A stretch of DNA of 64,000 nucleotides from Pteria penguin (taxonomy: Eukaryota; Mollusca; Bivalvia; Pterioida; Pteriidae). The position numbers and the translations under genes are program-made. A model generated the notes under the pieces. The model did no database searches and was not told the DNA's origin. It saw only the letters and a program-made list of their open reading frames with translations. The stretch covers positions 51,884,167 through 51,948,166 of the forward strand of contig CM068586.1 in assembly GCA_035048485.1 (NCBI GenBank), written 5' to 3'. Position 1 is the first letter of the stretch. The number at the start of each line of letters is the position of its first letter. Positions 8,791 to 63,229 of this stretch are shown here, in pieces.

Positions 8791-8834
8791 GATGAATAAA
8801 TAATGCACAGCGTAGAAATGTACTTTTAAACTTC

Positions 8835-9695
8835 TTACTTAGGGTTATAGATGTCATAAACTTCGAAAACCTTTTGGTAAATTTTATAGATCTTATTCAG
8901 ACATTTTATCTAAATTCGGAAATATTACTTTTCAACAATATGTATCAAGAGGAATTTCCCATCCCAACTTCTACGGTGATCTAGTCTACAAACTGAGAAA
9001 GGTCAAAGGTTCCGATAATTTCATATCGGCTAGTTCTAAGATTATTAAACGCCTTCGACACCGACAAATGACCCCGAGATCATCGCGAAGACCATAGATC
9101 TTGTATTGTGTCCCTCTCTAACCCAATGCAGGCTTTTACTTGAGCGTTGCACGCTGACTAATAGGGCAGTGGGGACTCTATGACGGGACTTGTCCAAACC
9201 TTTTCAGAGAAGACAAGGTCCTGATCCTCGTCTCCTCTGACTGTTAGTCGGAATTCCTATTGATCAACGATCTGAGCTCGCTAACAGACGGGCAGAGCAT
9301 GGTTAACTTATGTTGATGTCTCCTTATATTTTTTGATAGCAACATATTATTCTATTATTGTTTCGTGTGTAATAAATTTTTGTGACCTCTCTCCTTGAGA
9401 AACCTGTTGATCCTTGTTCTCTATTTGGAGGATTATTTATAAATTTTTAAATGTGTGTCCTTTAATTGTGCTGCTTTTACGGTGAGTGGGAAGGTGGGCG
9501 CCCGTAAACCGGTTAACCACACCAATTGAGTGACGTTTGTTACTTCAATTGACCGTCCTAAATCGGTATCGTAACCGCAGCACAATCGAATATTTTTGTA
9601 ATGTCGTTCCGTGTATATTATGCTCTTGTCATTTTTTGTGTGCAGGTCTTTGGTGATTTGTGTCATTCAGCTTTGTCGGATGTCTTCTGTTTTCT
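8835..9695 (+). mobile_element. Naiad-type Penelope-like element, 3' end only
   Basis: This is a strongly 5'-truncated copy. The first part codes for the RT C-terminus (FQQYVSRGISHPNFYGDLVY, then KGSDNFISASSKIIKRLR); after a small frameshift the frame ends LLLERCTLTNRAVGTL and TGA. The 3' untranslated part contains the SECIS-like fold at 9156-9249 and the common tail GTAAACCGGTTAACCACACC. The element appears to be flanked by short CTTTTA repeats, inside the upstream region of VMO1 copy C. It fills a gap that the copy at 58.8 kb has lost (about 37 nt after HPNF). Confidence 0.8.
9156..9249 (+). promoter_or_regulatory. SECIS-like stem-loop in Naiad 3' end
   Basis: Seen: ATGA at 9180-9183, 12 nt, AA at 9196-9197, 24 nt, then TGA at 9222-9224. 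The lower helix pairs GGGGAC with GTCTCC; the upper helix pairs GGGACTTGTC with GACAAGGTCC (one mismatch, one G-U). An outer stem GACTAATAG / CTGTTAGTC closes it. Spacing fits the eukaryotic SECIS pattern. Compared with the 61-kb copy, the upper helix gains a T-A pair where that one has T-T. Confidence 0.65.
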
Positions 9696-14069: not shown

Positions 14070-15580
14070 AAAATTAGATGGTTAGTTTGTATGGTCATGT
14101 CCCAAAATATCGGTTAATATTCCTTACATCGGAATCTGAAATTGTACTGGATCTCTATCTCCACCATACAACTTCCTCAGTGACAATTTTGAACTTTCCT
14201 CAATATATCCTTGTTTCTTGGCAAAAGACCTCAATCTTAGGACGAAATTTTCGTATTTAGAGCATGCCCTAGCATAGCGTATAAGTTGTGAAATGAATAC
14301 TCCATATACAGGAGAGGAGGGTATGTAGCTACTCAGAAAAGGGAAGTTGATAATAATGAAATAGAAATCGTCACGTCATAGAGAGTGGTTACTAATGAAT
14401 CATCGTCACTAGTTGATAGGAGTATATCGAGGTATGAAGCAGAATATATGCTCTCAGTTGTATCTTTTATCTCAAGTTCCTTTGGATATATGATGTTGAG
14501 GTGATCCTCAAATACAGGGTCGTTAATCGACAAAACGTCATCGATGTATCGGAATGTAAAGATGAACGGAGATGCTAATTGTTTTTACCATTGGAGAGCA
14601 GAGATGAATGAATTCTGCTTCGTAAGAGTACAAAAACGGTTTTCCATCAAATGTCACAAAAATATTATCTATAAGAAATTCTAACATTTGTATCATTTCT
14701 TCTGAATACTTGCTGCTAGAATCAGACTATCCCTTTACAAAATGTGTCATTGTGGCCTAAAATGAGATACTTATACCTTCGAATTCCTTTTTGTTAAAGA
14801 AGGCGTTATAAATAATTTATGATATTCTATACTTAAGTTTCTGATGAGGAATGGTTGTATAAAGAGTCGAATGTAAAATAGGAGATTTTAAATGTTCTAT
14901 AATTTCCTTGGAATTCTTTAGGATCCACAGCTGATTGATTCCACTTCTCAAGTAAGCAGTAGAGCAGTATTTCTGAAAATCATGTTTTATTTCTGTTAGA
15001 ATTTTGGCGAGTAATATGGAAAGAGACTTGGTGGAACACTTGGAAGATCCAGTTATGAATCGATGCTCAGATGGAGTTTTATGCATCTTTGGAAACCAAA
15101 GAAGTATGTTAGCTCGAGATCAGATTCATTTCTAGTAGTTCCGAATGAACTGATAACCGACTTTTGATTATCCAATATCTTTGAAGGAGATAAAGTTGTA
15201 ACTGTGTAAGTTGGATTCCCATGTGTAGAATGAAGACCAATCTCTGCTGTACGGCATTTAATATAATTTGTACAAAAATGTAATCCTTTGCTGCATTGTC
15301 AGCAGGAACAAACATGAACTTTTAGTGAAGTCGAGAAAGTTCTCCAACGACACTGGAGTCACGAAATATAGAATAGTGTTTCTTTTCAAGAAATGACAAC
15401 GTCTTCGAATTCTTTTCTTTAGCAGGCTTTTGATCAACGTCAGCCGTTCAGAAAGAGTAGAGTATGTTATACATCCTTATCTCTCTTAGCCCAACATCTG
15501 GCATACTCTTCACATGATTTCATAATAATTAAGAATATTTGAGCTTGTCTCATAATATTCTCATTTATCGTGGCATTCTT
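14070..15580 (-). mobile_element. Naiad-type Penelope-like element fragment (a)
   Basis: Read on the minus strand, with frameshifts: MKSCEEYARCWAKRD (about 15530); FVPADNAAKDYIFV (15312); MHKTPSEHRFITGSSKCSTK (15086, RT); HSTLYTTIPHQKLKY; IYPKELEIKDTTES and ASYLDILL (about 14485-14410); then YGVFISQLIRYARACS (about 14305). These are RT and post-RT blocks shared with fragment (b) and with the 58.8-kb element. The YxDD-bearing block and the N-terminal endonuclease are not seen. It faces away from fragment (b), with about 700 bp between their 5' ends. Confidence 0.75.
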
Positions 15581-18639: not shown

Positions 18640-19095
18640 ACTGAAAACTTGTATTACTTATGATTGCATAGTTCTAAGTATTCAATATTTGGTCTGAGTC
18701 CGTCAAGGTCCACGATAATATCAAAATTTTGACGCCATGTAAATGACTGTGGCTTTCTATATCTTAAGCCTTTACTTAAAAGTCCTCTAAGTTTTTCATT
18801 GCGAACAATATGGAGATCTCCTGTCATGGATTATATTTAAACTCTGAAGAGGAACATGAACACTCTATAGGGTTATGAAAGTCTTTCGGATCTACACATT
18901 TAAAATTTTGTTTTAGTTAAAGATTTTGGAAGCAACTGTTGGTGTATATTTAGAGGAAATACAAGGCGACTCCCTCATTTTTGAAGTATGGAGGAATATT
19001 ATCTTTGATAGACTTATGATTTAAAATGCTACTTAAATTAAGTGCGTGTGTCAGTTCCATTATTTGCAAAATATACTTTAAAAAAGGGGGCGCTC
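18640..19095 (-). mobile_element. Naiad-type element fragment (e), CxC domain
   Basis: On the minus strand: KDNIPPYFKN, then the CxC motif CSCSSSEFKYN (about 18870), then MTGDLHIVRNEKLRGLLSKG and LRYRKPQSFTWRQNFDII. This is the same block as GHVVTGDLNIV in fragment (b). It is truncated at both ends and inserted just before the broken exon 3 of VMO1 copy B. Confidence 0.7.
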
Positions 19096-29632: not shown

Positions 29633-30787
29633 TTACACAGGTTGACACGTGACGGAGTACACTGTTATCACGTCACATTTGTCTGTATAGTCATAGAGGC
29701 TGACATACAGCTTTTCTCCTTGTCCGTCATAGTATATGTACTTAGGCTTGCCGTTCATGTCACTCTTCTCCAGCAGTTTACGTTCATACTTTCCTGATGT
29801 TGATAATAAATGTACGCAGTCACCGCCAGAATCAGCTACACCCAAGACGCCGCGTATTTCCGTTATACCCCGCAGTCCTCCTGACAGGGGAGTAAACCAT
29901 AGCACCTCGCCCTCCACAGACACACATAGTACTCCACTACTGTCACCCCGGCACGGCACGTATATGACATGGGACTTCTGATCCATGTAGATATCCCACC
30001 CGAATGTTATCTTCTTCCCGCACGCTTCCTTGACTGTGATGTGTCTGACGTGTTCCCCCTGTCTCCCCAGTATGGTGATGATATTGTCGTACCTGTGTAA
30101 CACGCAGTAGTATGTCTTGTTATAGTGGATACCGTGCGCCATATAGTTGACGTGATATGTAACGTCACTACATGTTACTGTCTGGCCGTGTATATTCCAT
30201 AGGTACACTTTGTTACCGAGTCCGCATGTAGCGAATGTGTCGTCACTGACACGTGTGATCCCCCATGTAGAAGCCTTGAGTGCAGTAGATGACAAGTAAG
30301 TACCGCCATCATCAAACAACTTGAGCATCTTGTTATCATTATCTACTACGAAGACTTTACCAGCTACAGTCAATACACCACGGACAGTAACACCACATTT
30401 ATCTTCAGACCTTTTGACACTGATGTCTCTGCAGTGTACGGCTTTCAGGTTACCAGGATCAGCATATTTTGTCGATTTCTTGTCACTTTTTGGTAAAGCT
30501 GCACGTTTGCTTTGACCTTCGTCGTGTCTGCTACCCAAGGCCACCGCGTATGGTGGATCATCGTACTCTGTTTTCAGAAAATCAGAAGCACATTCGTCCT
30601 CATTATTGACTGACGGGGTGATAGCGGGTAGGAGGAGTTTAAATATGATGTGGTCTTCTGACATTTTAAACGTAGGATGCATGTCAGAACATGCCTTGCA
30701 GTAGAATTCTCGGCATTGGTAACAAACGGAGTAGACTGCGGAATGTTTACCTATTTTTAAGCAGGGGTGGCAGTACGTGGTAGACAT
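29633..30787 (-). CDS. B-box zinc finger / beta-propeller protein (TRIM-like), single exon
   Basis: 384 codons, ATG to stop, uninterrupted. Residues 6-46 form a B-box-type zinc finger: C6-x2-C9, C22-x2-C25, C30-x2-C33, H37 and H46. A polar linker (about 47-110) follows; I see no RING upstream and no strong coiled coil. Residues about 115-380 consist of repeated strands (GVLTVAGKVFVVDNDNKMLK, ITEIRGVLGVADSGGDCVHL) typical of the NHL/WD-like propeller of mollusc TRIM2/3/56/71-like proteins. Such proteins serve in protein-protein recognition, often in ubiquitination or innate immunity; without a RING, ligase activity is not implied. G+C is higher than the surroundings. A single-exon structure fits the expanded, intronless TRIM-like families of bivalves. 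The start is chosen because the zinc finger begins at residue 6. Confidence 0.85.
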   Translation of the reverse strand: MSTTYCHPCLKIGKHSAVYSVCYQCREFYCKACSDMHPTFKMSEDHIIFKLLLPAITPSVNNEDECASDFLKTEYDDPPYAVALGSRHDEGQSKRAALPKSDKKSTKYADPGNLKAVHCRDISVKRSEDKCGVTVRGVLTVAGKVFVVDNDNKMLKLFDDGGTYLSSTALKASTWGITRVSDDTFATCGLGNKVYLWNIHGQTVTCSDVTYHVNYMAHGIHYNKTYYCVLHRYDNIITILGRQGEHVRHITVKEACGKKITFGWDIYMDQKSHVIYVPCRGDSSGVLCVSVEGEVLWFTPLSGGLRGITEIRGVLGVADSGGDCVHLLSTSGKYERKLLEKSDMNGKPKYIYYDGQGEKLYVSLYDYTDKCDVITVYSVTCQPV

Positions 30788-30789
30788 TT

Positions 30790-31400
30790 CTCTAGATTTT
30801 ATCTAAAACAATACAGGAAATCACAATGAAATTCATATTTTAGCGACTACGTTCTCGTAGATCGACTCAGCAAAGTTTGCATTACGCGTCACTTGTATTA
30901 TTATTATAGATCTAGGTGATGCATTTAAATTATGAATTACCCTCTTATATGCTTTAATTAATTATTTTTTTCTTACAAATGCAAAAATACTTACAACGGT
31001 AAACACGTCTAGTTTCCTTCTTGGTTGTTAATCTCTATGAAGTCATGTGATATAGCAACAAATTTTTATACGAGTTATCTTTCTTACCCCATAAAGCTGC
31101 GTAAACTCAATGACTAGGTGGCATGTATGTATACAACATGTATATAATATAATATAATATAGTATATTGGCTTATATGTCTCTGATGTGAATAAGATGGA
31201 CAATCAAACAGAAAGTCCTCTCCCTTTTTCTTCTTATTATAATGATTATTTTTATTTTTGGTTGTTTTATTATTGTTTATGTCTTTTTGTTTTTGGTTTT
31301 TCTTTGGGGGGGGGGTGTACTATTTTGCTGTAGGGTTTGGTATTATTCTTTTGATTGATGTCTCAAGAGGAGTAGTTTCGTGGTTTATTGTTGTTTATTT
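30790..31400. other. Upstream flank of the TRIM-like gene
   Basis: AT-rich, with TATAATATAATATAATATAG at about 31142. It is the likely promoter side of the minus-strand gene, but no specific element can be fixed. Confidence 0.4.
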
Positions 31401-33779: not shown

Positions 33780-34160
33780 AGAACCGCTGTTGATATCAAG
33801 CGGTCTGAGAAAAAAGAGGAGTTACTGGCTAAGTTATATGTGGCAGAAGTTACCATGGAGCTATACAATACATGAATATAAATAATATACTAGAACATAT
33901 AAGACATTACAAATATATTTGATTGTAGTGCAATTACGATACCGACTTGAGACGGTCATTTAATTTGACAAAAGCCAAACAAATGGTGTGGTTAACTGGT
34001 TTACGGGTACACCTTCCCACTCACCGTAACAGCAGAACAATCAAAGGACGTACATTTAAAAATTTATAAATAATCCTCCATGTAAAGAACAAGGGTCAAC
34101 AGGTATCGCATATTGAGAGGTCATAAAAATATAAACACGTAAGGTATTGTAAAACATAAA
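33780..34160 (-). repeat. Naiad 3' tail fragment
   Basis: The reverse complement matches 61260-61640, including GTAAACCGGTTAACCACACC-like, GTCGGTATCGTAATTGCAC-like and the AGCTCCATGGTGACTTCTGC block. The coding part is absent. Confidence 0.75.
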
Positions 34161-36270: not shown

Positions 36271-37622
36271 CGAGGGGGTGTTCCGAAATTATTGTTACTT
36301 GCGCAATATCTCGTGGAAATAGTGCTAAATGAGCTTAAAACTACCCCATGGCGATAGCGTGATATCTGAAGCGTGGTATAGGTAAATTTCTCGCTCACAA
36401 TTACACTGACCTTGGTGCTGTGTACATTGTTTTGTAGCGTACTCGTTACACTCTATATAAATATGGTTGGCAAGAGAGCTGAAAACGTAATTGAAATTAG
36501 GGCCTATATCAAAGGTAGGTCTCTACTTGGCTTAAAGGCGGTAGATATTCATCGTGAGGTGTGTGATATTTATGGGAAGGGTCAAATGTCATATATGACT
36601 ATTTGTAGGTGGGTTGCTCGATTTAAGTCGGGACACCAGCAGCTGAAAGATGCTGCTCACACAGGTCGCCCTGCAACAACAACAACAAAGCATAACATTG
36701 AACGAATTCGACAAATCCTTGAAAAAGATGCAAGGTACACTGTCAGGCAGTTAGCTAAAATGACAGGCTTGTCTTTAGCACGTATTCACTGTATTTTAAA
36801 GAAACATCTTAAGCTGGGCAAGATCAATGCCAGGTGGATGCCCCATTTACTAACTGACGACCAAAAGAGGTCCCGGTTTGACAAGGCCAAATCCTTATTG
36901 AAGAAATACCCAAAATACAGCAAAAAGGCTTTTGATAATTTGGTCACAGGTGATGAAACATGGGTGTATTTTTTCGAGCCCAAAAGAAAATGCTCTAATC
37001 GAATCTGGGCAAACAAAAACGCAGGCGCCCTAGCATTGCTAAAAGAATACGCACCGTGAGGAAGGTTTTGTATGTCATATTCTTTGATAACAAGGGTCCA
37101 ATCATGCAAATCCCTGTTCCGAAAGGCAAAACTGTCACAGCAAAGTATTATAGAGACGTTGTACTTCGAAAACTGAAGAAAGTCTACAAACGCCGCCGCC
37201 CACATACAGATTTGAAGTACCTCAGTCTCTTGCATGACAATGCGCCAGCACACAAGGCGCGTATTGTAACGGAGTTTTTGAAGGCAGAAAAGGTCACTGT
37301 CCTCCCCCACCCTGCATTTTCACCAGACTTGACCCCCTGTGACTTTTTCTTGTTCCCCAAACTAAAATTTCACCTATCTGGAAAAAAATATAAATCAAGA
37401 AATGCCCTTGGCTCTGCCATTCACCAGTATCTTATGAGTATACCAATTCAAGAGTACGAAAACTGTTTCCAAAAGTGGATTGATCGGTTGAAACGATGCA
37501 TAAATGCAGAGGGGGGGGGGGGGGGGGGGGTTAATTCGAAGGACAGGGCAAAGTAAAATGATCACAATTACTTCTATCAAAAAGAAATCGCCAAAGTAAC
37601 AATAACTTCGGAACATCCCTCG
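36271..37622 (+). mobile_element. Mariner-family DNA transposon, 1352 bp
   Basis: Terminal inverted repeats of about 29 bp: left CGAGGGGGTGTTCCGAAATT, right (reverse complement) CGAGGGATGTTCCGAAGTTA. The target TA is at 36269-36270 and 37623-37624. It holds one transposase gene (36463-37556). Confidence 0.92.
36463..37556 (+). pseudogene. Mariner transposase, one frameshift
   Basis: The N-terminal helix-turn-helix part begins MVGKRAENVIEIRAYIKGRS, with a second DNA-binding helix near YTVRQLAKMTGLSLARIHCI. Catalytic residues: first D in TGDETW, second D in LLHDNAPAH, third D in LTPCDFFLFP, 34 residues after the second, i.e. the DD34D spacing of mariners. A 1-nt shift near 37020 breaks the frame (IWANKNA in the first frame, RRPSIAKRIRTVRKV in the next). 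Everything else is open, so the copy is young. The C-terminus is distorted by a 19-G run at 37511-37530. It cuts and pastes its own ends at TA sites; this copy could be mobilised only in trans. Confidence 0.88.
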
Positions 37623-39689: not shown

Positions 39690-39890
39690 CTAACAAGAGC
39701 AATGCCTAGCGTGACATATTACTCTCTTCCCTTAGTTTGAAGGAGAGAATTTTGAAAGTATGGAAACATTCCCCCCACCTTAAACTGCTAAATCCCCAAT
39801 AGTTCATTCTGTATCTTGCCTACACGGTTTTCTAAGCAATCAGTACTACGACCTTCACCTTTGACCTTGAAAAAATATAAGCGTCTTTAT
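39690..39890 (+). repeat. Dispersed repeat flanking the 28-bp minisatellite
   Basis: GCAATGCCTAGCGTGACATA and AAGTATGGAAACATTCCCC are shared with 63250-63330, next to the other minisatellite. TTGACCTTGAAAAA and ATAAGCGTCTTTATCTTG return at 41835-41865. Confidence 0.7.
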
Positions 39891-39892
39891 CT

Positions 39893-41320
39893 TGCATGAG
39901 GAGTAAGTGTACCAAGCCTTGACATGAGGAGTAAGTGTACCAAGTCTTGACATGCGGAGTAAGTGTACCAAGTCTTGGCATGAGGAGTAAGTGTACCAAG
40001 TCTTGGCATGAGGAATAAGTGTACCAAGTCTTGGCATGAGGAGTAAGTGTACCAAGTCTTGGCATGAAAAGTAAGTGTACCAAGTCTTGGCATGAGGAGT
40101 AAGTGTACCAAGTCTTGGCATGAAAAGTATATGTACCAAATCTTGGCATGAAAAGTAAGTGTACCAAGTCTTGGCATGAAAAGTAAGTGTACCAAGTCTT
40201 GGCATGTGGAGTAAGTGTACCAAGTCTTGGCATGAGGAGTAAGTGTACCAAGTCTTGGCATGAGGAATAAGTGTACCAAGTCTTGGCATGAGGAGTACGT
40301 GTACCAAGTCTTGGCATGAGGAGTAAGTGTACCAAGTCTTGGCATGAAAAGTAAGTGTACCAAGTCTTGGCATGAGGAGTAAGTGTACCAAGTCTTGGCA
40401 TGAGGAGTAAGTGTCCTAAGTCTTGGCATGAGGAGTATGTGTACCAAGTTTTGGCATGAGGAGTAAGTGTACCAAGTCTTGGCATGAGGAGTAAGTGTCC
40501 TAAGCCTTGGCATGAAAAGAAAGTGTACCAAGTTTTGGCATGAGGAGTAAGTGTACCAAGCCTTGGCATGAGGAGTAAGTTTCCTAAGCCTTGGCATGAA
40601 AAGTAAGTGTACCAAGTCTTGGCATGAGGAGTAAGTGTACCAAGTCTTGGCATGAAAAGTAAGTGTACCAAGTCTTGGCATGAAAAGTAAGTGTACCAAG
40701 TCTTGGCATGAACAGTAAGTGTACCAAGTCTTGGCATGAGGAGTAAGTGTACCAAGTCTTGGCATGAGGAGTAAGTGTACCAAGTCTTGGCATGAGGAAT
40801 AAGTGTACCAAGTCTTGGCATGAGGAGTACGTGTACCAAGTCTTGGCATGAGGAGTAAGTGTACCAAGTCTTGGCATGAAAAGTAAGTGTACCAAGTCTT
40901 GGCATGAGGAGTAAGTGTACCAAGTCTTGGCATGAAAAGTATATGTACCAAATCTTGGCATGAAAAGTAAGTGTACCAAGTCTTGGCATGAAAAGTAAGT
41001 GTACCAAGTCTTGGCATGTGGAGTAAGTGTACCAAGTCTTGGCATGAGGAGTAAGTGTACCAAGTCTTGGCATGAGGAATAAGTGTACCAAGTCTTGGCA
41101 TGAGGAGTACGTGTACCAAGTCTTGGCATGAGGAGTAAGTGTACCAAGTCTTGGCATGAAAAGTAAGTGTACCAAGTCTTGGCATGAGGAGTAAGTGTAC
41201 CAAGTCTTGGCATGAGGAGTAAGTGTACCAAGTCTTGGCATGAGGAGTATGTGTACCAAGTCTTGGCATGAGGAGTAAGTATATCAAGTCTTGGCATGAG
41301 GAGTAAATATACCAAGTATG
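39893..41320 (-). repeat. 28-bp minisatellite, about 51 units, with higher-order repeat
   Basis: Unit: GGCATGAGGAGTAAGTGTAC followed by CAAGTCTT. Variants differ at a few positions (GAGGAG, GAAAAG, GTGGAG, GAACAG; ACGTGTACC; GTCCTAAG). A distinctive run of variants around 40126-40390 reappears 812 bp later (29 units) at 40938-41200; a marker variant (TACGTGTACC) is at 40297, 40829 and 41109. As 28 is not a multiple of 3 and the unit has no stop on the minus strand, all three minus frames are open (475, 466 and 250 codons), each with the same 28-residue period (MPRLGTLTPHAKTWYTYSSC...). I regard these frames as by-products. Confidence 0.95.
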
Positions 41321-50994: not shown

Positions 50995-51665
50995 CGGACA
51001 TGCACACAAAACATGATAATAGTAAAATATATACGGGAAAACGACATAACAAAAATATTCGATTGTGCTGAGGTTACGATACCGAGTTTGGACAGTCAAT
51101 TAAAGTAACAAACGTCACTTAATTGGTGTGGTTGACCGGTTTACGAGCGCCCATTTCCCCCACTCACTGCAAAAGCAGCACAATCAAAGGACACACATTT
51201 AAAAATTTATAAATAAACCTCCATATAGAGAACAAGGATCAACTGCTTTTCAAGAAAAGAGGTCATAAAAATTTCTTATACACGAAACGTTTATAGAATA
51301 ATATGCTGCTATCAAAAATATGTAAGGCGACATCAACATAGGTAAACAGTGCTCTGCCCGTCTGTAAGCGAGCTCAGGTCCTTGATCAATAGAAGTCCCG
51401 ACTAACAGTCAGAAGGGACGACGATCAGGACCGTGTCTCCTCTGAAAAGATTTGGACAAGGCCCGTCATAGAGTCCCTACCGCCCAGTTAGTCAGCGTGC
51501 AATGCTCAAGAAAGAGTCTCTATTGGGATGTAGAGAGACCCAATACAAGACATATGGTCTTAGTGATGATCTCGGTGTCGAACTGTCGATGTCAAAGGGG
51601 TTTGATAATTTGAGATACCGCTGATATGAAATTATCGGAATAGATCACCATATTCAAGTTCAAAT
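50995..51665 (-). mobile_element. Naiad 3' end, truncated
   Basis: On the minus strand: the RT C-terminus remnant (SDNFISAVSQIIK), a degraded LVLG-like block, EHCTLTNWAVGTL and TGA; then the SECIS-like fold and the tail. It is inserted in intron 1 of VMO1 copy D. Confidence 0.75.
51400..51493 (-). promoter_or_regulatory. SECIS-like stem-loop in Naiad 3' end
   Basis: Minus strand: outer stem GACTAACTG / CTGTTAGTC; lower helix AGGGAC / GTCCCT; ATGA; 12 nt; AA; 24 nt; TGAT. The upper helix pairs GGGCCTTGTC with GACACGGTCC (one mismatch, one G-U). Compared with 61.1 kb the first pair of the lower helix is A-T instead of G-C, a compensatory change. Confidence 0.65.
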
Positions 51666-52619: not shown

Positions 52620-54470
52620 CTTTTAGCTATACATCCACCATTGTTTCTAAACTGTTTAATTACAAACAAACTTTGAAGTGCCTAGATATCAAATATCTTA
52701 CACAAAACCATACCGCGTGTTCATGCTCCTTATCCAAATTTACATATAGTCTTGTTGGTCACGTCATCACTTTATCTCAATGGCGATGTCAACATCGTGA
52801 ACAATGTAACTCTTCGTGAGCTAATTACCCGGGGTCCAACATTTAGAGAGCCTAAAACATTTAATTGGCGAACCAACTTCCGTATTGTTAGGGATTCGGT
52901 AGAGGACTATGTTCGTAGATGGGCAAAACGTGAAGAAGGTGAGCTAAATACGTTGTCAGAATGGATTTAGAGTGTAAGAGGTTTGATACTCACAAGTATT
53001 AGTAATTTAAAAAGGGGCATGAAGACCATTCATCCGTCTGTCTTCGACGACCCAAGAGTCAGAGAAGAACTCGAAGGAATGCATGACAATATAAATTGTC
53101 TTTAGAGGAACTTGGCATTAACAAATTTACTGGAAATCCCACTTACACTCGCTCTACACTCTCACTAGATGAAATTATTATTAACCATAAGTCAGTGTTA
53201 AGTACCTTCTTTAACTTATGTACTAAGGATAGTAGTTCGAGTTACCCTATTTATATTGGATCTCTAAATTACACAAAGATCCATATAAACATAGGTTCAT
53301 TGCAGGATCCAGTAAAACTTCTATCAGCCCTCCTTACCAAAATATTATCTGCAATTAAGGAGAAACTTTAGACGTACTTCGATGTGATTTACTCTAGAAG
53401 TGGTGTTAATCAGTTGTGGATACTATAAAAACTCCAAAGAATTATTGGAAAACTTAAAATCTCAAAATCTGACAACTATTAAATTCATTAAGATTTATCA
53501 TTTTTCTACACTTTATACCACCATACCTCATGATAAATTGAAAAACTGGCTCTTTAGAATCATTGATAACTGTTTCTTCACCAAAAAGGCTTCACGCAGA
53601 TATAAATTTATTGTTTTAGGATATCTAGATACATATTTTGTGAAAAACCACTCTGAATCTAAAAATGAGTACTCTGAAGATGACATCAAAAACATGCTGG
53701 ACTTTATTTTGGAAATACATATATACAGAATATTCTGTATATAAAAAGAATATCAGTATTAAGTATGACTTTTTCGCATCATGTTGACTTCAACAATGTC
53801 AGTATTTCGAGATTTTCATACAAATGCGAGTTTGATAAGTCGTTTTCGAAGAAAATTGACTTACGAAATCTCGTAATGGTATCTTTAAAACAATAACTCG
53901 ACATAAAATTCTCGTTAGTAGCATGTTTATTGCAACATATCAACAAAAATGATGTGAATAATTCTTGATTTTCATGGAAATGCGACTTTATTACGACGAT
54001 TAATTTTAAAATTGACATAAGGGAAATCGCATAAATTTATCTTGACTTAAAGAAAATCAACTAAGTGTTTTATAGATGACAAGTTGCCCACAAGAACTCG
54101 TTTAAGGACAGTTTACGGCAACTTTTCGACTTTATTACGTCATCAAGTTTTATTACTCTCGGCAAAGCAGTTTTATTTTTGGCATGAGATCTACTACTGA
54201 CAATACAACAACACCAGGCACCAACACGTTTTCGTAGTAACATTCCCTTCTCAAATGAATATCTTGTCTATGTGACTCAGCTGATTCGGTATGCTAGAGC
54301 TTCTTCTGACTACGGCTCTTTCATTCATGGAGACAAATTATTTGGTGACAAAGTTATTACCACAAGTATATGAAATCAAACGTCACTATTCTGCAAATTT
54401 TACGGACGATACAAATATCTAGTTTACAATTAGGGGATAAACGTGCTGTGTTTGATTGTTTCCCAAGGTA
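52620..54470 (+). mobile_element. Naiad-type Penelope-like element fragment (c)
   Basis: Coding blocks with frameshifts: the CxC motif ACSCSLSKF (about 52718), GHVIT, LNGDVNIVNNVTLRELITRG (52775), VEDYVRRWAKREEGELNTLS, then (as in fragment b) a gap where the VPAD..VV(C) block should be, followed by LEELGINKFTGNPTYT (53102), RT blocks KILSAIKEKL and FSTLYTTIPHDKLKNWLFRI (53498), and after a foreign-looking spacer at 53750-54190, YLVYVTQLIRYARASSDYGS (54262). Dead; 5'-truncated. Confidence 0.72.
53755..54195. other. Spacer inside Naiad fragment (c)
   Basis: AT-rich, not alignable to the other Naiads here; it has recurring CATAGAAATGCGA-like blocks (ATTTTCATACAAATGCGAG, TTTTCATGGAAATGCGAC). It is possibly an unrelated insertion. 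Confidence 0.4.
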
Positions 54471-58695: not shown

Positions 58696-59672
58696 AAAAG
58701 AATTAACAAGAGACCCAGGTGAGCCTATATTACTCACCTGAATACAATTTTCTCATTCACAAACAAGTAAGTGCTTTAAGAAATTCGCAGATACAAATTT
58801 TCTCTCGCTAACTGTGACCTAATAGGTCATTAAACGATCTTCTATTTATCGCAAACAATAATGGCCGTCATGAACTTTTGCATGCACTATCCTCTATTCC
58901 GGTAAATAAATTGAAACCTATCCTGGACGAAGCTGATCTTCGAAGTTTACGCAATTCTGATTGATATAAACTCAATTTGATTATTTTATTTTCATATAAT
59001 AAACTCTTTCCTCGTATTCCGTCTCTTCCACCCAAGCAGCAATTTCTCAAAATTAAATTTATTAATAAAGGCTTCGATCTACTTAACATTTCTAATATTT
59101 TCCGTGATCATAGAGTCACATCTAAAATCCCCCAATATTTTGAGAATTTAGAACCTCCAATTATTTGTTACCAGTACAAAAAGCCTATAAGAAATCTTAT
59201 TTTAAATTATAATAAAGTCACATCTAACCCTGATGTTTCAGACTCTATTCCTTCGTCGTGTTCTTGTGAAAATTCTAAATATGTTTATAAACCGGCAGGT
59301 CATGTTATTACTGGTGACCTAAACTGTATTTCGGACAAGAAATTGCGCACCCTTTTTGGAAAAGGACCTAAATATAGGTTACCGTCCAGGATAGATTTCA
59401 ATAAATGCCGTGACGTTATAGAAGATGCTTTAACTACATATTGTAAACGTTGGTGTAAAAAAGAACAGGTAAATGTTCATGCTCTTAATGATTGGAAATT
59501 CGAGATTTTAAGAATTGTCGATATCCGTATTAAGAACTTTACGGAAAATCCGCATTTATTTCAACAGCCTAATACATTGACGACAAATTCTATTAAAAAG
59601 AAGATAGCTGACTTACATGCTAAATATCTCTTTGTTCCCGCTGATAAAGCAGGTAATAACATAATAGTTGTT

Positions 59673-59675
59673 TGA
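59673..59675 (+). other. In-frame TGA at a conserved position (candidate selenocysteine codon)
   Basis: It directly follows GTT GTT (Val-Val) and is followed by AAA CTA TAT TAT ATT GAA in the same frame, which continues open for about 180 codons. Both flanks are conserved-looking RT sequence, so this is a substitution-type stop and not the end of a gene. Confidence 0.65.
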
Positions 59676-60558
59676 AAACTATATTATATTGAAGTACTTA
59701 AAAACGAATTAAACTCCACTCATACATATGTTGAAAGCCCTACCCCAAAAGAGAGCACCTTGCACGATCACCTCATGACCATGTCCGACTTCAAAATTAA
59801 AACTGATAAATCTGATCTACCAACCATGTATTGGCTCCCAAAACTACATAAAAGTCCATATAAACCACGTTTCATATCTAATTCTAGCCACTGCTCTACT
59901 ACGGTACTATCGAAACATATTACGTCTGCTCTAACTGCTATAAAAGATCATATTATCAAATATTGTGATGTCGCATTTCATAATAGTAACATCAATTACT
60001 TTTGGTCGATTAAAAATTCTCATGAAGTTATAGACAAATTTCTTTCGCTAAATTTCAAAGCGACTCAAATTTCTACATTTGATTTTTCTACACTTTATAC
60101 ATCTCTGCCTCATGATTTGATTAAAAGCAAGTTGCTGTCTCTTATACAATGGTGTTTTCACAGAGAATCTAAAACGTACGTATGTACTTCCAATAACTCT
60201 GGATTTTTTCCAACAAACAATATACTTCATATAAATACTGGACTGCAAGGAATTATGTAAAGCACTAGATTTTCTCATGAATAATATTTTTGTGCAATTT
60301 GATGGCAAGATATATCAACAAATAGTTGGGATTCCTATGGGTACTAACTGCGCGCCTCTGATAGCAAATCTATTTCTTTATTGTTATGAGAGGGATTTTA
60401 TGGTTTCTATTCAAAAATCAAAACGTTTTGACCTCATTGACAAATTTAATAATACTTGCAGATATCTGGATGACATTTTGGTTATGGATAACCCTGAATT
60501 CGAACAATTTATATCAGAAATATATCCACCAGAGCTCACATTGAATAAAGCTAATACT

Positions 60559-60561
60559 TGA
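60559..60561 (+). other. In-frame TGA before DKSTPFLDL (second candidate)
   Basis: The codon lies between LTLNKANT and DKSTPFLDLNIKI and the frame continues. In fragments (a) and (b) the same place holds Glu/Ser (TTES..SASYLDI), so it could equally be a nonsense mutation. Confidence 0.4.
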
Positions 60562-61093
60562 GATAAATCTACACCTTTCTTAGATTTAAACATCAAAATT
60601 ATCAACAACCTAATATATACTAATATTTATGATAAATGTGAGGATTTTGGATTTCCTATTGTAAATTTCCCTTACTTGGATGGCGATGTCCCTCGACTCC
60701 CATCATATGGTATCTATATATCTCAATTAGTTCGATTTGTCAGAGGTTGCACCGATGTTTTAGACTTTCATAAACGAAATTTACAAATTACTACTAAACT
60801 TTTAACTCAGGGTTACAGATATCACAAGCTAAGAAAAACATTCGGCAAATTCCTCAGATCTTATTCAGAACTTCTATCTAAATTTGGAAATATTTCTTTT
60901 CAACAGTATGTATCCAATGGAATTTCCCATCCTAATTTTTAAAAGGCTCCGATAACGTTATTTTATCATGTAATAAAATAGTCAAACGTCTCCTAAATAG
61001 ACAATATGATATTGAGATCATCAAAAAGACTATAGGTCTTGTATTTGGCCCCTCTACAGCCTTATGCAGACTTTTACTTGAACGTTGCACGCT

Positions 61094-61188
61094 GACTAAC
61101 AGGGCGGTGGGGACTATATGACGGGCCTTGTCCAAAGCTCTTTCAGAGGAGACATGGTCCTGAACCTCGTCCCCTCTGACTGTTAGTC
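61094..61188 (+). promoter_or_regulatory. SECIS-like stem-loop overlapping the RT stop codon
   Basis: Outer stem GACTAACAG (61094) / CTGTTAGTC (61180). Lower helix GGGGAC (61109) / GTCCCC (61169), perfect. Core ATGA at 61118-61121 and TGA at 61161-61163. Upper helix GGGCCTTGTC / GACATGGTCC (one T-T mismatch, one G-U). AA at 61134-61135, 12 nt after ATGA; 25 nt from there to TGA. This fits the pattern ATGA-N(10-12)-AA-N(18-27)-NGAN used for eukaryotic SECIS elements. The TGA within ATGA is also the stop of the RT frame. Confidence 0.72.
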
Positions 61189-61644
61189 GGGACTCCTACA
61201 GATCTAGGGTCTTAGCTCGCTTTCAGACTGGCAGAGCACGGTTTATCATGTTGATGTCTCATATATTTTTATACCATTATGTGTTTTACAATACCTTACC
61301 TGTATATATTTTTATGACCTCCCAATATGCGATACCTGTTGACCCTTGTTCTTTACATGGAGGATTATTTAGAAATTTTTAAATGTACGTCTTTTGATTG
61401 TTCTGCTGTTACGGTGAGTGGGAAGGTGGGCCCGTAAACCGGTTAACCACACCATTTGTTTGGCTTTTGTCAAATTAAATGACCGTCCTAAGTCGGTATC
61501 GTAATTGCACTACAATCAAATATATTTGTAATGTGTTAAATGTTCTATTATATTATTTATATTATATTATATATATATATCATGTATTGTATAGCTCCAT
61601 GGTGACTTCTGCCACATAACTGAGCCGGTAACTCCTCTTTTGTC

Positions 61645-62270
61645 TTTAACAACAGACACAAGAATGTAATTCTCTTCTGTACACTATATATGCAATCAAG
61701 ACCATGATACAAAATTAGGTTAAAAAGATAGTCAGGATTCTTTTTTATCATTTTCCCCTTGTACATAATTTAAAATCTTCTTTTGGGGTAATGAAGTTTA
61801 AAACTGCCTTGAGCAGGGTTTTGATATGCTTCCCTTAATCATGACAGAACTGGACTATATAAAAATTTAGAAAAAAAAGTCATAAAAAACTAAAAAACTA
61901 AACTTTGATGTAAAATTTTCAAGCAACTTTTCACATAGATTTTTTCTAATTTAATTTGGCAAATAAATGCTTTATAACTTCTATACATACTGAGTAAAGT
62001 AAGAAAATAAAATAGAAATATATGGAAAAAAGACTCTTTTTATTAAGTACTATTAAGTACTGCAAAACACGTAACATTTTTTGGTATAAAATGAAATAAA
62101 AACTCTTTTTAATTTTTTTGTTTCCAGCTGGGTTTTAACTGCTAACCACCAGAATGCCAAAACTGGCCTATACCAAAAACAGGAAAAAAATCATAAATCT
62201 AGAAATTCAAAACAGATTATTCACATGACTGTGATGATAACACTTTAAAATAACCCTTGAAATAGACATT
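61645..62270. other. Unassigned AT-rich stretch
   Basis: No gene; dispersed-repeat-like sequence before the second minisatellite. Confidence 0.4.
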
Positions 62271-62274
62271 ATCA

Positions 62275-63095
62275 AAAACTTGTAAGCACATAGATGCTTT
62301 ATGTAAGCACACAGATGCTTTATTTAAGCAAATGTATGCTTTATGTAAGCACACAGATGCTTTATGTATGTACACAGATGGTTTATGTAAGCACATATAT
62401 GCTTTAAGTAAGCACACAAATGCTTTATGTAAGCAAATGGATGCTTTATGTAAGCACACAGATGCTTTATGTAAGCACATATATTGTTTATGTAAGCACA
62501 TAGATGGTTTATGTAAGCATATAAATGCTTTATGTAAGCACATAGATGGTTTATGTAAGCACATAAATAATTATGTAAGCACACAGATGGTTTATGTAAG
62601 TACACAGATGGTTTATGTAAGCACATAGATGGTTTATGTAAGCACACAGATGCTTTATGTAAGCACATAGATAGGTTTATGTAATCATAGAGATGGTTTA
62701 TGTAAGCACACAGATGGTTTATGTAAGTACACATATGGTTTATGTAAGCACAGATATGGTTTATGTAAGCACACAGATGGTTTAGGTAAGCACATAGATG
62801 GTTTATGTAAGTACACAGATGCTTTATGTAAGCACACAGATGCTTTATGTAAGCACATAGATGCTTTATATAAGCACATAGATGCTTTATATGCTTTATG
62901 TAAGGACATAGATGGAATATGTAAGAACACAGATGGATTATGTAAGAACACAGATGGTTTATGTAAGCACATAGATGGTTTATGTAAGCACATAGATGGT
63001 TTCTGTAAGCACATAGATGGTTTTCATAAGCACATAGATGCGCTATATAAGCACACCGATGGATTATAAGAACACATAGATGGTTTATGTAAGCA
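62275..63095. repeat. 21-bp minisatellite, about 39 units
   Basis: Unit TTTATGTAAGCACATAGATGG with variants (ACACAG, GATGCT, GTACAC). The period is a multiple of 3, so long frames arise on both strands: minus 268 aa with CAYINHL-type repeats, minus 115 and 109 aa with CLHKPSM-type repeats, and plus 98 aa with LCKHIDG-type repeats. I treat them as by-products of the repeat. Confidence 0.95.
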
Positions 63096-63229
63096 CAGCA
63101 GTCATCATGCAAGTACTTCAACCCTACCAAGTTTTGACATAATCAAAATCATTAAATTAGTTCTGAATGAGACACCATCAAAACTGATCAACATATATGC
63201 TTAAAGCATTTTCTCCTCATTTCAATCTT

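Follow-up and report, generated by a model that had tools for sequence, protein, structure and literature searches.

A Naiad-like Penelope-like retroelement family of Pteria penguin with fixed in-frame UGA codons and a SECIS element: a probable case of multi-selenocysteine coding

The window (the whole 64-kb stretch of Pteria penguin DNA analysed here) contains a retroelement remnant whose long reading frame is interrupted by TGA codons and closed by a SECIS-like fold. The question raised by this locus is whether these TGA codons are scars of ordinary decay, or whether the family to which the remnant belongs used UGA to encode selenocysteine (Sec), as proposed in an earlier note on this DNA. 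We addressed it by comparing the remnant with its close copies in the genome and with diverged relatives.

Element boundaries, copies and protein anatomy

The DNA search covered the 838-Mb genome (49 contigs), and the best 40 of 3557 candidates were scored; therefore, the copy number given here is a lower bound. Thirty-nine other copies are 97–99% identical to the window copy over the matched part. The features of the element body are listed below, with codons numbered as in copy L006.

58821..61647 (+): Penelope-like (Naiad-type) retroelement of family A, 5'-truncated copy, delimited by the 39 other matching copies
58821..61121 (+): remnant of a single ORF, corresponding to codons 278–1055 of L006, with its frame disrupted by three deletions (two of 1 base, one of 31 bases)
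59259..59267 (+): CxC motif (Cys424-Ser-Cys426, codons 424–426) in the linker before the reverse transcriptase (RT)
60078..60116 (+): presumed RT motif A region, FDFSTLYTSLPHD, assigned by sequence
60463..60474 (+): presumed RT catalytic motif YLDD, assigned by sequence

The 5' boundary at 58821 is the shared start of the 39 other copies (one of which matches from 58822 instead). The start at 58818 given in the earlier note is thus replaced, and a TGA at 58815 falls outside the element. Upstream of 58821, the other copies extend with different sequence (one of them by only about 24 bases), indicating that the window copy is 5'-truncated. On the 3' side, homology continues to approximately 61640–61650 in those copies whose retrieved sequence extends to this point. 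The deletions relative to L006 are located at about 60209–60244 and at approximately 60939. Judged from these alignments, the window copy is a dead, 5'-truncated and frameshifted member of a Penelope-like retroelement family that has many copies and resembles Naiads in its anatomy. Private frameshifts or stops are common among the family A copies. An intact frame, with no frameshift and no stop beyond the fixed TGA codons, is present in three (L006, L041 and L068) of the 17 copies extending to codon 1.

L006, which lies on the minus strand of its locus, has 1054 codons, among which are five internal TGA codons but neither TAA nor TAG, and it ends at the TGA matching 61119. The encoded protein begins with a Cys-rich part that includes a GIY-YIG-like stretch and has TGA at codons 123 and 134. 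This part is followed by a basic stretch, by TGA at codon 325, by the CxC linker, and by the RT motifs to YLDD (TGA at codons 562 and 858). In the element protein P0001, the GIY-YIG-like stretch occupies about aa 127–158, N-terminal to the RT motifs, and the RT is the last part encoded. The RT motifs were picked out by eye, and we presume that the names GIY-YIG, CxC, motif A and YLDD are the appropriate labels. When P0001 was searched against Pfam, PHROGs, NCBIfam and the PDB, no decisive match was obtained: Pfam yielded no family even at an E-value of 10, no RT was among the PDB matches, and the NCBIfam group II intron RT matched aa 760–833 weakly (E 0.002, with 17.2 bits where the cut-off is 300). 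AlphaFold2 models of two pieces from the window had mean pLDDT values of 39.6 and 37.6, which are too poor for use.

The CxC motif, a feature of the Naiad clade, is present in the window family, and CTC or CSC also occurs in three of the four distant Penelope-like fragments listed in the next section. Head-to-tail partial copies (pseudo-LTRs), which are expected of Penelope-like elements, were found upstream in L007, L041, L058, L063, L068, L069 and L070, and inverted neighbour pieces with 77–86% identity were found at L004 and L053; such tandem partial copies and inverted pieces are also a feature of the Naiad clade. Rfam listed no hammerhead ribozyme at the gathering cut-off in the 42 loci, many of which end short of the 3' end of the element. 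The Naiad clade is not known to have a canonical hammerhead ribozyme.

Other features of the window were noted in passing. A reading frame at approximately 34059–34160 (-) ends in a peptide that is also encoded immediately 3' of the SECIS in family A, and it is probably another 3' fragment of this family. Just past the element, a 21-bp tandem array of about 38 copies (62281–63097) has open frames on both strands, and the minus strand of a 28-bp tandem array of 51 copies (39890–41317) contains extended open frames. A transposase remnant, which we take to be mariner-like, is spread over two frames at 36382–37553 (+). A 389-codon frame at 29636–30802 (-) has a Cys/His N-terminus that is presumably B-box-like.

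In-frame TGA codons within and between families

The in-frame TGA codons of the window copy are as follows.

58962..58964 (+): in-frame TGA at codon 325, putative Sec, in 40/40 copies and also in family B (L073 and L075)
59673..59675 (+): in-frame TGA at codon 562, putative Sec, in 40/40 copies and also in L073, and in L075 beside a one-base indel
60559..60561 (+): in-frame TGA at codon 858, putative Sec, in 40/40 copies, with Cys or Ser in some relatives

The earlier note had placed TGA codons at these three positions and had reported that TAA and TAG are absent from the window copy. The positions are correct, and the family frame of the window copy contains neither TAA nor TAG. In the alignment, which comprises the window copy and 39 loci and from which no copy was removed, the consensus at all three sites is TGA, not a sense codon, and it is fixed in 40/40 copies, a count that does not represent 40 independent observations because the copies are near-identical, were chosen as the best matches to the window and have one recent ancestor. 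Two further TGA codons lie in the part that the window copy lacks: codon 123 is TGA in 26 of the 28 copies reaching it (one TTA and one gap), and codon 134 in 27 of 28 (one gap). As the note had anticipated, TGA is commoner across the copies than TAA or TAG. The remaining stops are sporadic and nearly always private (11 TAA, 2 TAG and 3 TGA columns, each in a single copy except for one TAA in two). In the per-codon majority sequence, the coding frame has 0 TAA, 0 TAG and 6 TGA, and the other two forward frames have 57 and 134 stops, a contrast that goes beyond chance.

According to a decay scenario, the TGA codons would be nonsense mutations of one master copy that were spread passively by the enzyme of another element. 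The dead state of the window copy, the private frameshifts or stops in many copies, and the common ancestor of the near-identical copies are all consistent with this scenario. However, five of the five fixed internal stops are TGA, whereas new stops in this family are mostly TAA. The new stops expected from the family's own base changes have a TAA:TAG:TGA ratio of about 16.8:7.3:7.5, and under this mutation spectrum the probability that all five are TGA is approximately 8e-4.

Diverged relatives provide a comparison across a longer distance. Family B consists of two degraded single copies with many private stops, B1 (L005 with L073) and B2 (L075), which were found beside two loci. Other relatives are listed below.

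L073 675–1448 (+): copy C, closely related to family A and lacking both ends, with TGC (Cys) in place of TGA at codon 858
8822..9234 (+): 3' end of a related Naiad with its own SECIS at 9172–9234 (35.4 bits), 76–78% aa identity
51415..51639 (-): 3' end of a related Naiad with its own SECIS at 51415–51477 (39.5 bits), 60% aa identity
16217–17952 (+), 14163–15104 (-), 18708–19042 (-) and 52622–53600 (+): distant Penelope-like fragments, 27–57% aa identity by piece

TGA is present at codon 325 in both B1 and B2. At codon 562, which sits inside a 10-base invariant block, TGA is present in B1, and B2 retains it within an identical TTGTTTGAAA block, next to a one-base indel, where the automatic codon table reads one base off and gives TTG. 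Conservation between families thus concerns codons 325 and 562, and that of codons 123, 134 and 858 is within family A only. Codon 858 is TCC (Ser) in B1 and AGC (Ser) in two of the distant window fragments. Codon 325 is TCC (Ser) in one distant copy in which the alignment is uncertain. Among the relatives obtained, no homologue has another residue at codons 123, 134 or 562. With Ser found beside Cys at codon 858, the putative Sec columns are not all plain Cys replacements, as far as the alignments allow us to judge. The residues at codon 858 are compatible with a path from Ser through Cys to Sec, of which we infer the direction.

The SECIS element and the end of the frame

The SECIS element and its surroundings in the window copy have the following features.

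61110..61173 (+): SECIS element (Rfam RF00031, SECIS_1), 35.4 bits against a cut-off of 35
61119..61121 (+): TGA that is both the end of the ORF (terminal codon 1055) and the UGA of the SECIS core, in 40/40 copies
61092..61102 (+): 5' arm of an 11-bp lower stem, in coding sequence (fold of 61086–61196, z -3.69)
61180..61190 (+): 3' arm of the same stem in the same fold

The SECIS-like fold that had been suggested to close the frame is recognized by Rfam at 61110–61173. Across the copies, the match is above the Rfam cut-off in 36/40 (the window copy, 5/7 loci, and 14/16 and 16/16 further copies), and it is below the cut-off in L005's own copy, L007, L048 and L052. The SECIS of B1 scores 46 bits. 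The 64-kb window yielded three SECIS matches at E-values up to 2 and no others, and each of the three closes an element of this kind; the four distant Penelope-like fragments had no match at this threshold. The core ATGA is intact in 40/40 family A copies and in all seven sequences of an alignment of diverged SECIS elements, and the 3' TGA is intact in 39/40 family A copies. In the seven diverged sequences, 90.8% of the cells pair, compared with at most 55.9% when the pairing was slid. Covariation in these seven sequences is weak, with double changes at 3 pairs, a number reached in 47 of 500 shuffles. The 11-bp lower stem is present in family A and in the 8822 relative, and it is interrupted in B1 and in the 51415 relative. 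The z values of the long-hairpin fold are -3.7 for the window copy, -4.7 for L006, and -2.9 to -3.6 for three relatives.

A long protein could also be produced by UGA readthrough without selenocysteine, through leaky termination or a near-cognate tRNA. The inserted residue cannot be read from sequence alone, and the Ser at codon 858 in relatives would agree with such readthrough. However, leaky termination needs no SECIS and is unexpected at five sites, whereas the SECIS exceeds its cut-off in most family A copies and in the diverged relatives, and only UGA is fixed. We regard this possibility as very unlikely.

The same arrangement, with the frame leading to the core UGA, is seen in B1 and in two relatives within the window (at 9181 and 51468). 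In the piece beside L007, the SECIS core is present, and the frame does not lead there cleanly. The five upstream UGA codons are located 591 to 2796 nt away. A minimum of 51 nt between a UGA and the SECIS has been reported for Sec insertion (PMC3737529). On the basis of this minimum, the core UGA should terminate translation, and the five upstream UGA codons could be read as Sec.

Past the SECIS stop, most family A copies have neither TAA nor TAG over approximately 86 codons at 61122–61380 (+). This open stretch is not kept in family B and is probably due to chance. A coding extension beyond the SECIS was rejected, since the apical loops of families A and B differ by one base and the frame is not kept. 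This one-base difference puts whatever follows the SECIS into another frame, and the core UGA is therefore the most likely end of the ORF.

Selection beyond the UGA codons and the case for recoding

Within family A, variants shared by at least three copies have a nonsynonymous to synonymous ratio (N:S) of 9:20, compared with 414:158 for singletons (p 8e-6), and those shared by at least two copies have an N:S of 35:34 (p 4e-4). Beyond codon 562, the values are 5:12 for variants in at least three copies and 212:85 for singletons (p 6e-4). Beyond codon 858 alone, the corresponding ratios within the family (2:3 and 89:41) do not differ significantly (p 0.33).

We also estimated dN/dS against family A by the Nei-Gojobori method on tblastn pieces. 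The dS values of family B are approximately 1.4 (B1) and 1.5 (B2), with dN/dS values of 0.14 and 0.18, respectively. Between the UGA codons 562 and 858 (codons 563–857), dN/dS is 0.19 in B1, in which one 64-codon piece has a saturated dS, and 0.18 in B2. For codons 859–1054, it is 0.19 in B1 and 0.12 in the window relative at 8822–9180. Higher values were found for the piece at 51415–51639 in the window (0.26) and the one beside L007 (0.39), both of which are decayed, and for 29 codons beside L004 (0.50). The close copy C gave 0.35–0.68 at a dS of only 0.09.

The low dN/dS beyond the UGA codons, together with the TGA codons kept in the diverged family B, indicates that the sequence beyond them has been translated and selected, as expected from recoding and not from decay. 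The decay scenario is difficult to reconcile with the dN/dS of 0.12–0.19 in the better pieces, with TGA kept at two sites across a dS of about 1.4, and with a SECIS located at the end of the frame. Decay as the source of the TGA codons is rejected by the mutation spectrum, by the comparison of shared and private variants and by the diverged family, and we consider it extremely unlikely.

We therefore return to recoding, the explanation that we prefer. It is highly probable that the window copy is a relic of a family whose single multi-Sec selenoprotein is decoded via one SECIS and ends at the core UGA. The predicted product would be a single protein that comprises an N-terminal endonuclease-like part, the CxC linker and the RT. 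Its five in-frame UGA codons would be read as Sec by host factors acting on the one SECIS at the frame end, and translation would stop at the UGA inside the SECIS core, which would be too near the SECIS to be decoded as Sec. Counting against this explanation are the distance of about 2.8 kb between codons 123 and 134 and the SECIS, and the low efficiency expected when five Sec residues must be inserted one after another. The fixed UGA codons, the SECIS and the selection beyond the UGA codons are observed, and they point to actual Sec insertion, to termination at the core UGA and to transposition that would depend on host selenium. The descent from a selenocysteine-using retrotransposon proposed in the earlier note gains support from TGA in 40/40 copies, the SECIS, the TGA codons in the diverged family and the purifying selection downstream; the production of the element would then depend on host selenium. 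Beyond that note, the sequences add the fixation of the TGA codons across copies, two putative upstream Sec codons, selection past the UGA codons, the retention of two TGA codons in the diverged family B, and the location of the stop codon inside the SECIS.

It is also conceivable that the family coded for Sec in the past and is now extinct, so that its SECIS is a relic; this agrees with the preferred explanation for the past and differs from it for the present. The window copy is dead, and only 3/17 copies reaching codon 1 are intact (L006, L041 and L068). However, the 97–99% identity among copies and the three open copies point to recent activity, and extinction appears unlikely.

Elements of this kind have been described before. 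Craig, Yushenova, Rodriguez and Arkhipova (2021, Mol Biol Evol 38:5005) reportedly named the Naiads and described those of spiders and clams as encoding multiple selenocysteines; the window family would be a further example of multi-selenocysteine Naiads. It resembles the spider and clam Naiads in its presumed Penelope-like type, a putative endonuclease-like part N-terminal to the RT, the CxC linker, the tandem pseudo-LTR copies and the several in-frame UGA codons. Among the papers covered by our literature search, none treated Penelope-like elements together with selenocysteine. Selenoprotein P similarly has several UGA-Sec codons in one frame. Human SELENOP has 10 UGA codons and two SECIS elements in the 3' UTR (PMC5133445). 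Unlike SELENOP, the window family has one SECIS, which overlaps the stop codon and belongs to a mobile element.

The case presented here draws on many copies and on the comparison between families, with selection beyond the UGA codons as part of the evidence. Repeats that carry a SECIS also have a practical consequence for annotation: in a genome like this one, an automatic selenoprotein gene search will pick up retroelements, as with the three SECIS matches in the window, each located at a retroelement end. Tentatively, and with slightly less than even confidence, we suggest a lineage with lasting Sec decoding, in which a hairpin of about 100 nt with a coding 5' arm holds a SECIS whose core UGA is the only stop, and distance from the SECIS sets whether a UGA gives Sec or termination. 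If this is true, once UGA means Sec, later UGA mutations would become missense instead of nonsense, sites such as codon 858 may drift from Ser through Cys to Sec, and the activity of the element would be tied to host selenium. Sec recoding in a mobile element would thereby link genome invasion to the selenium and redox state of the host.
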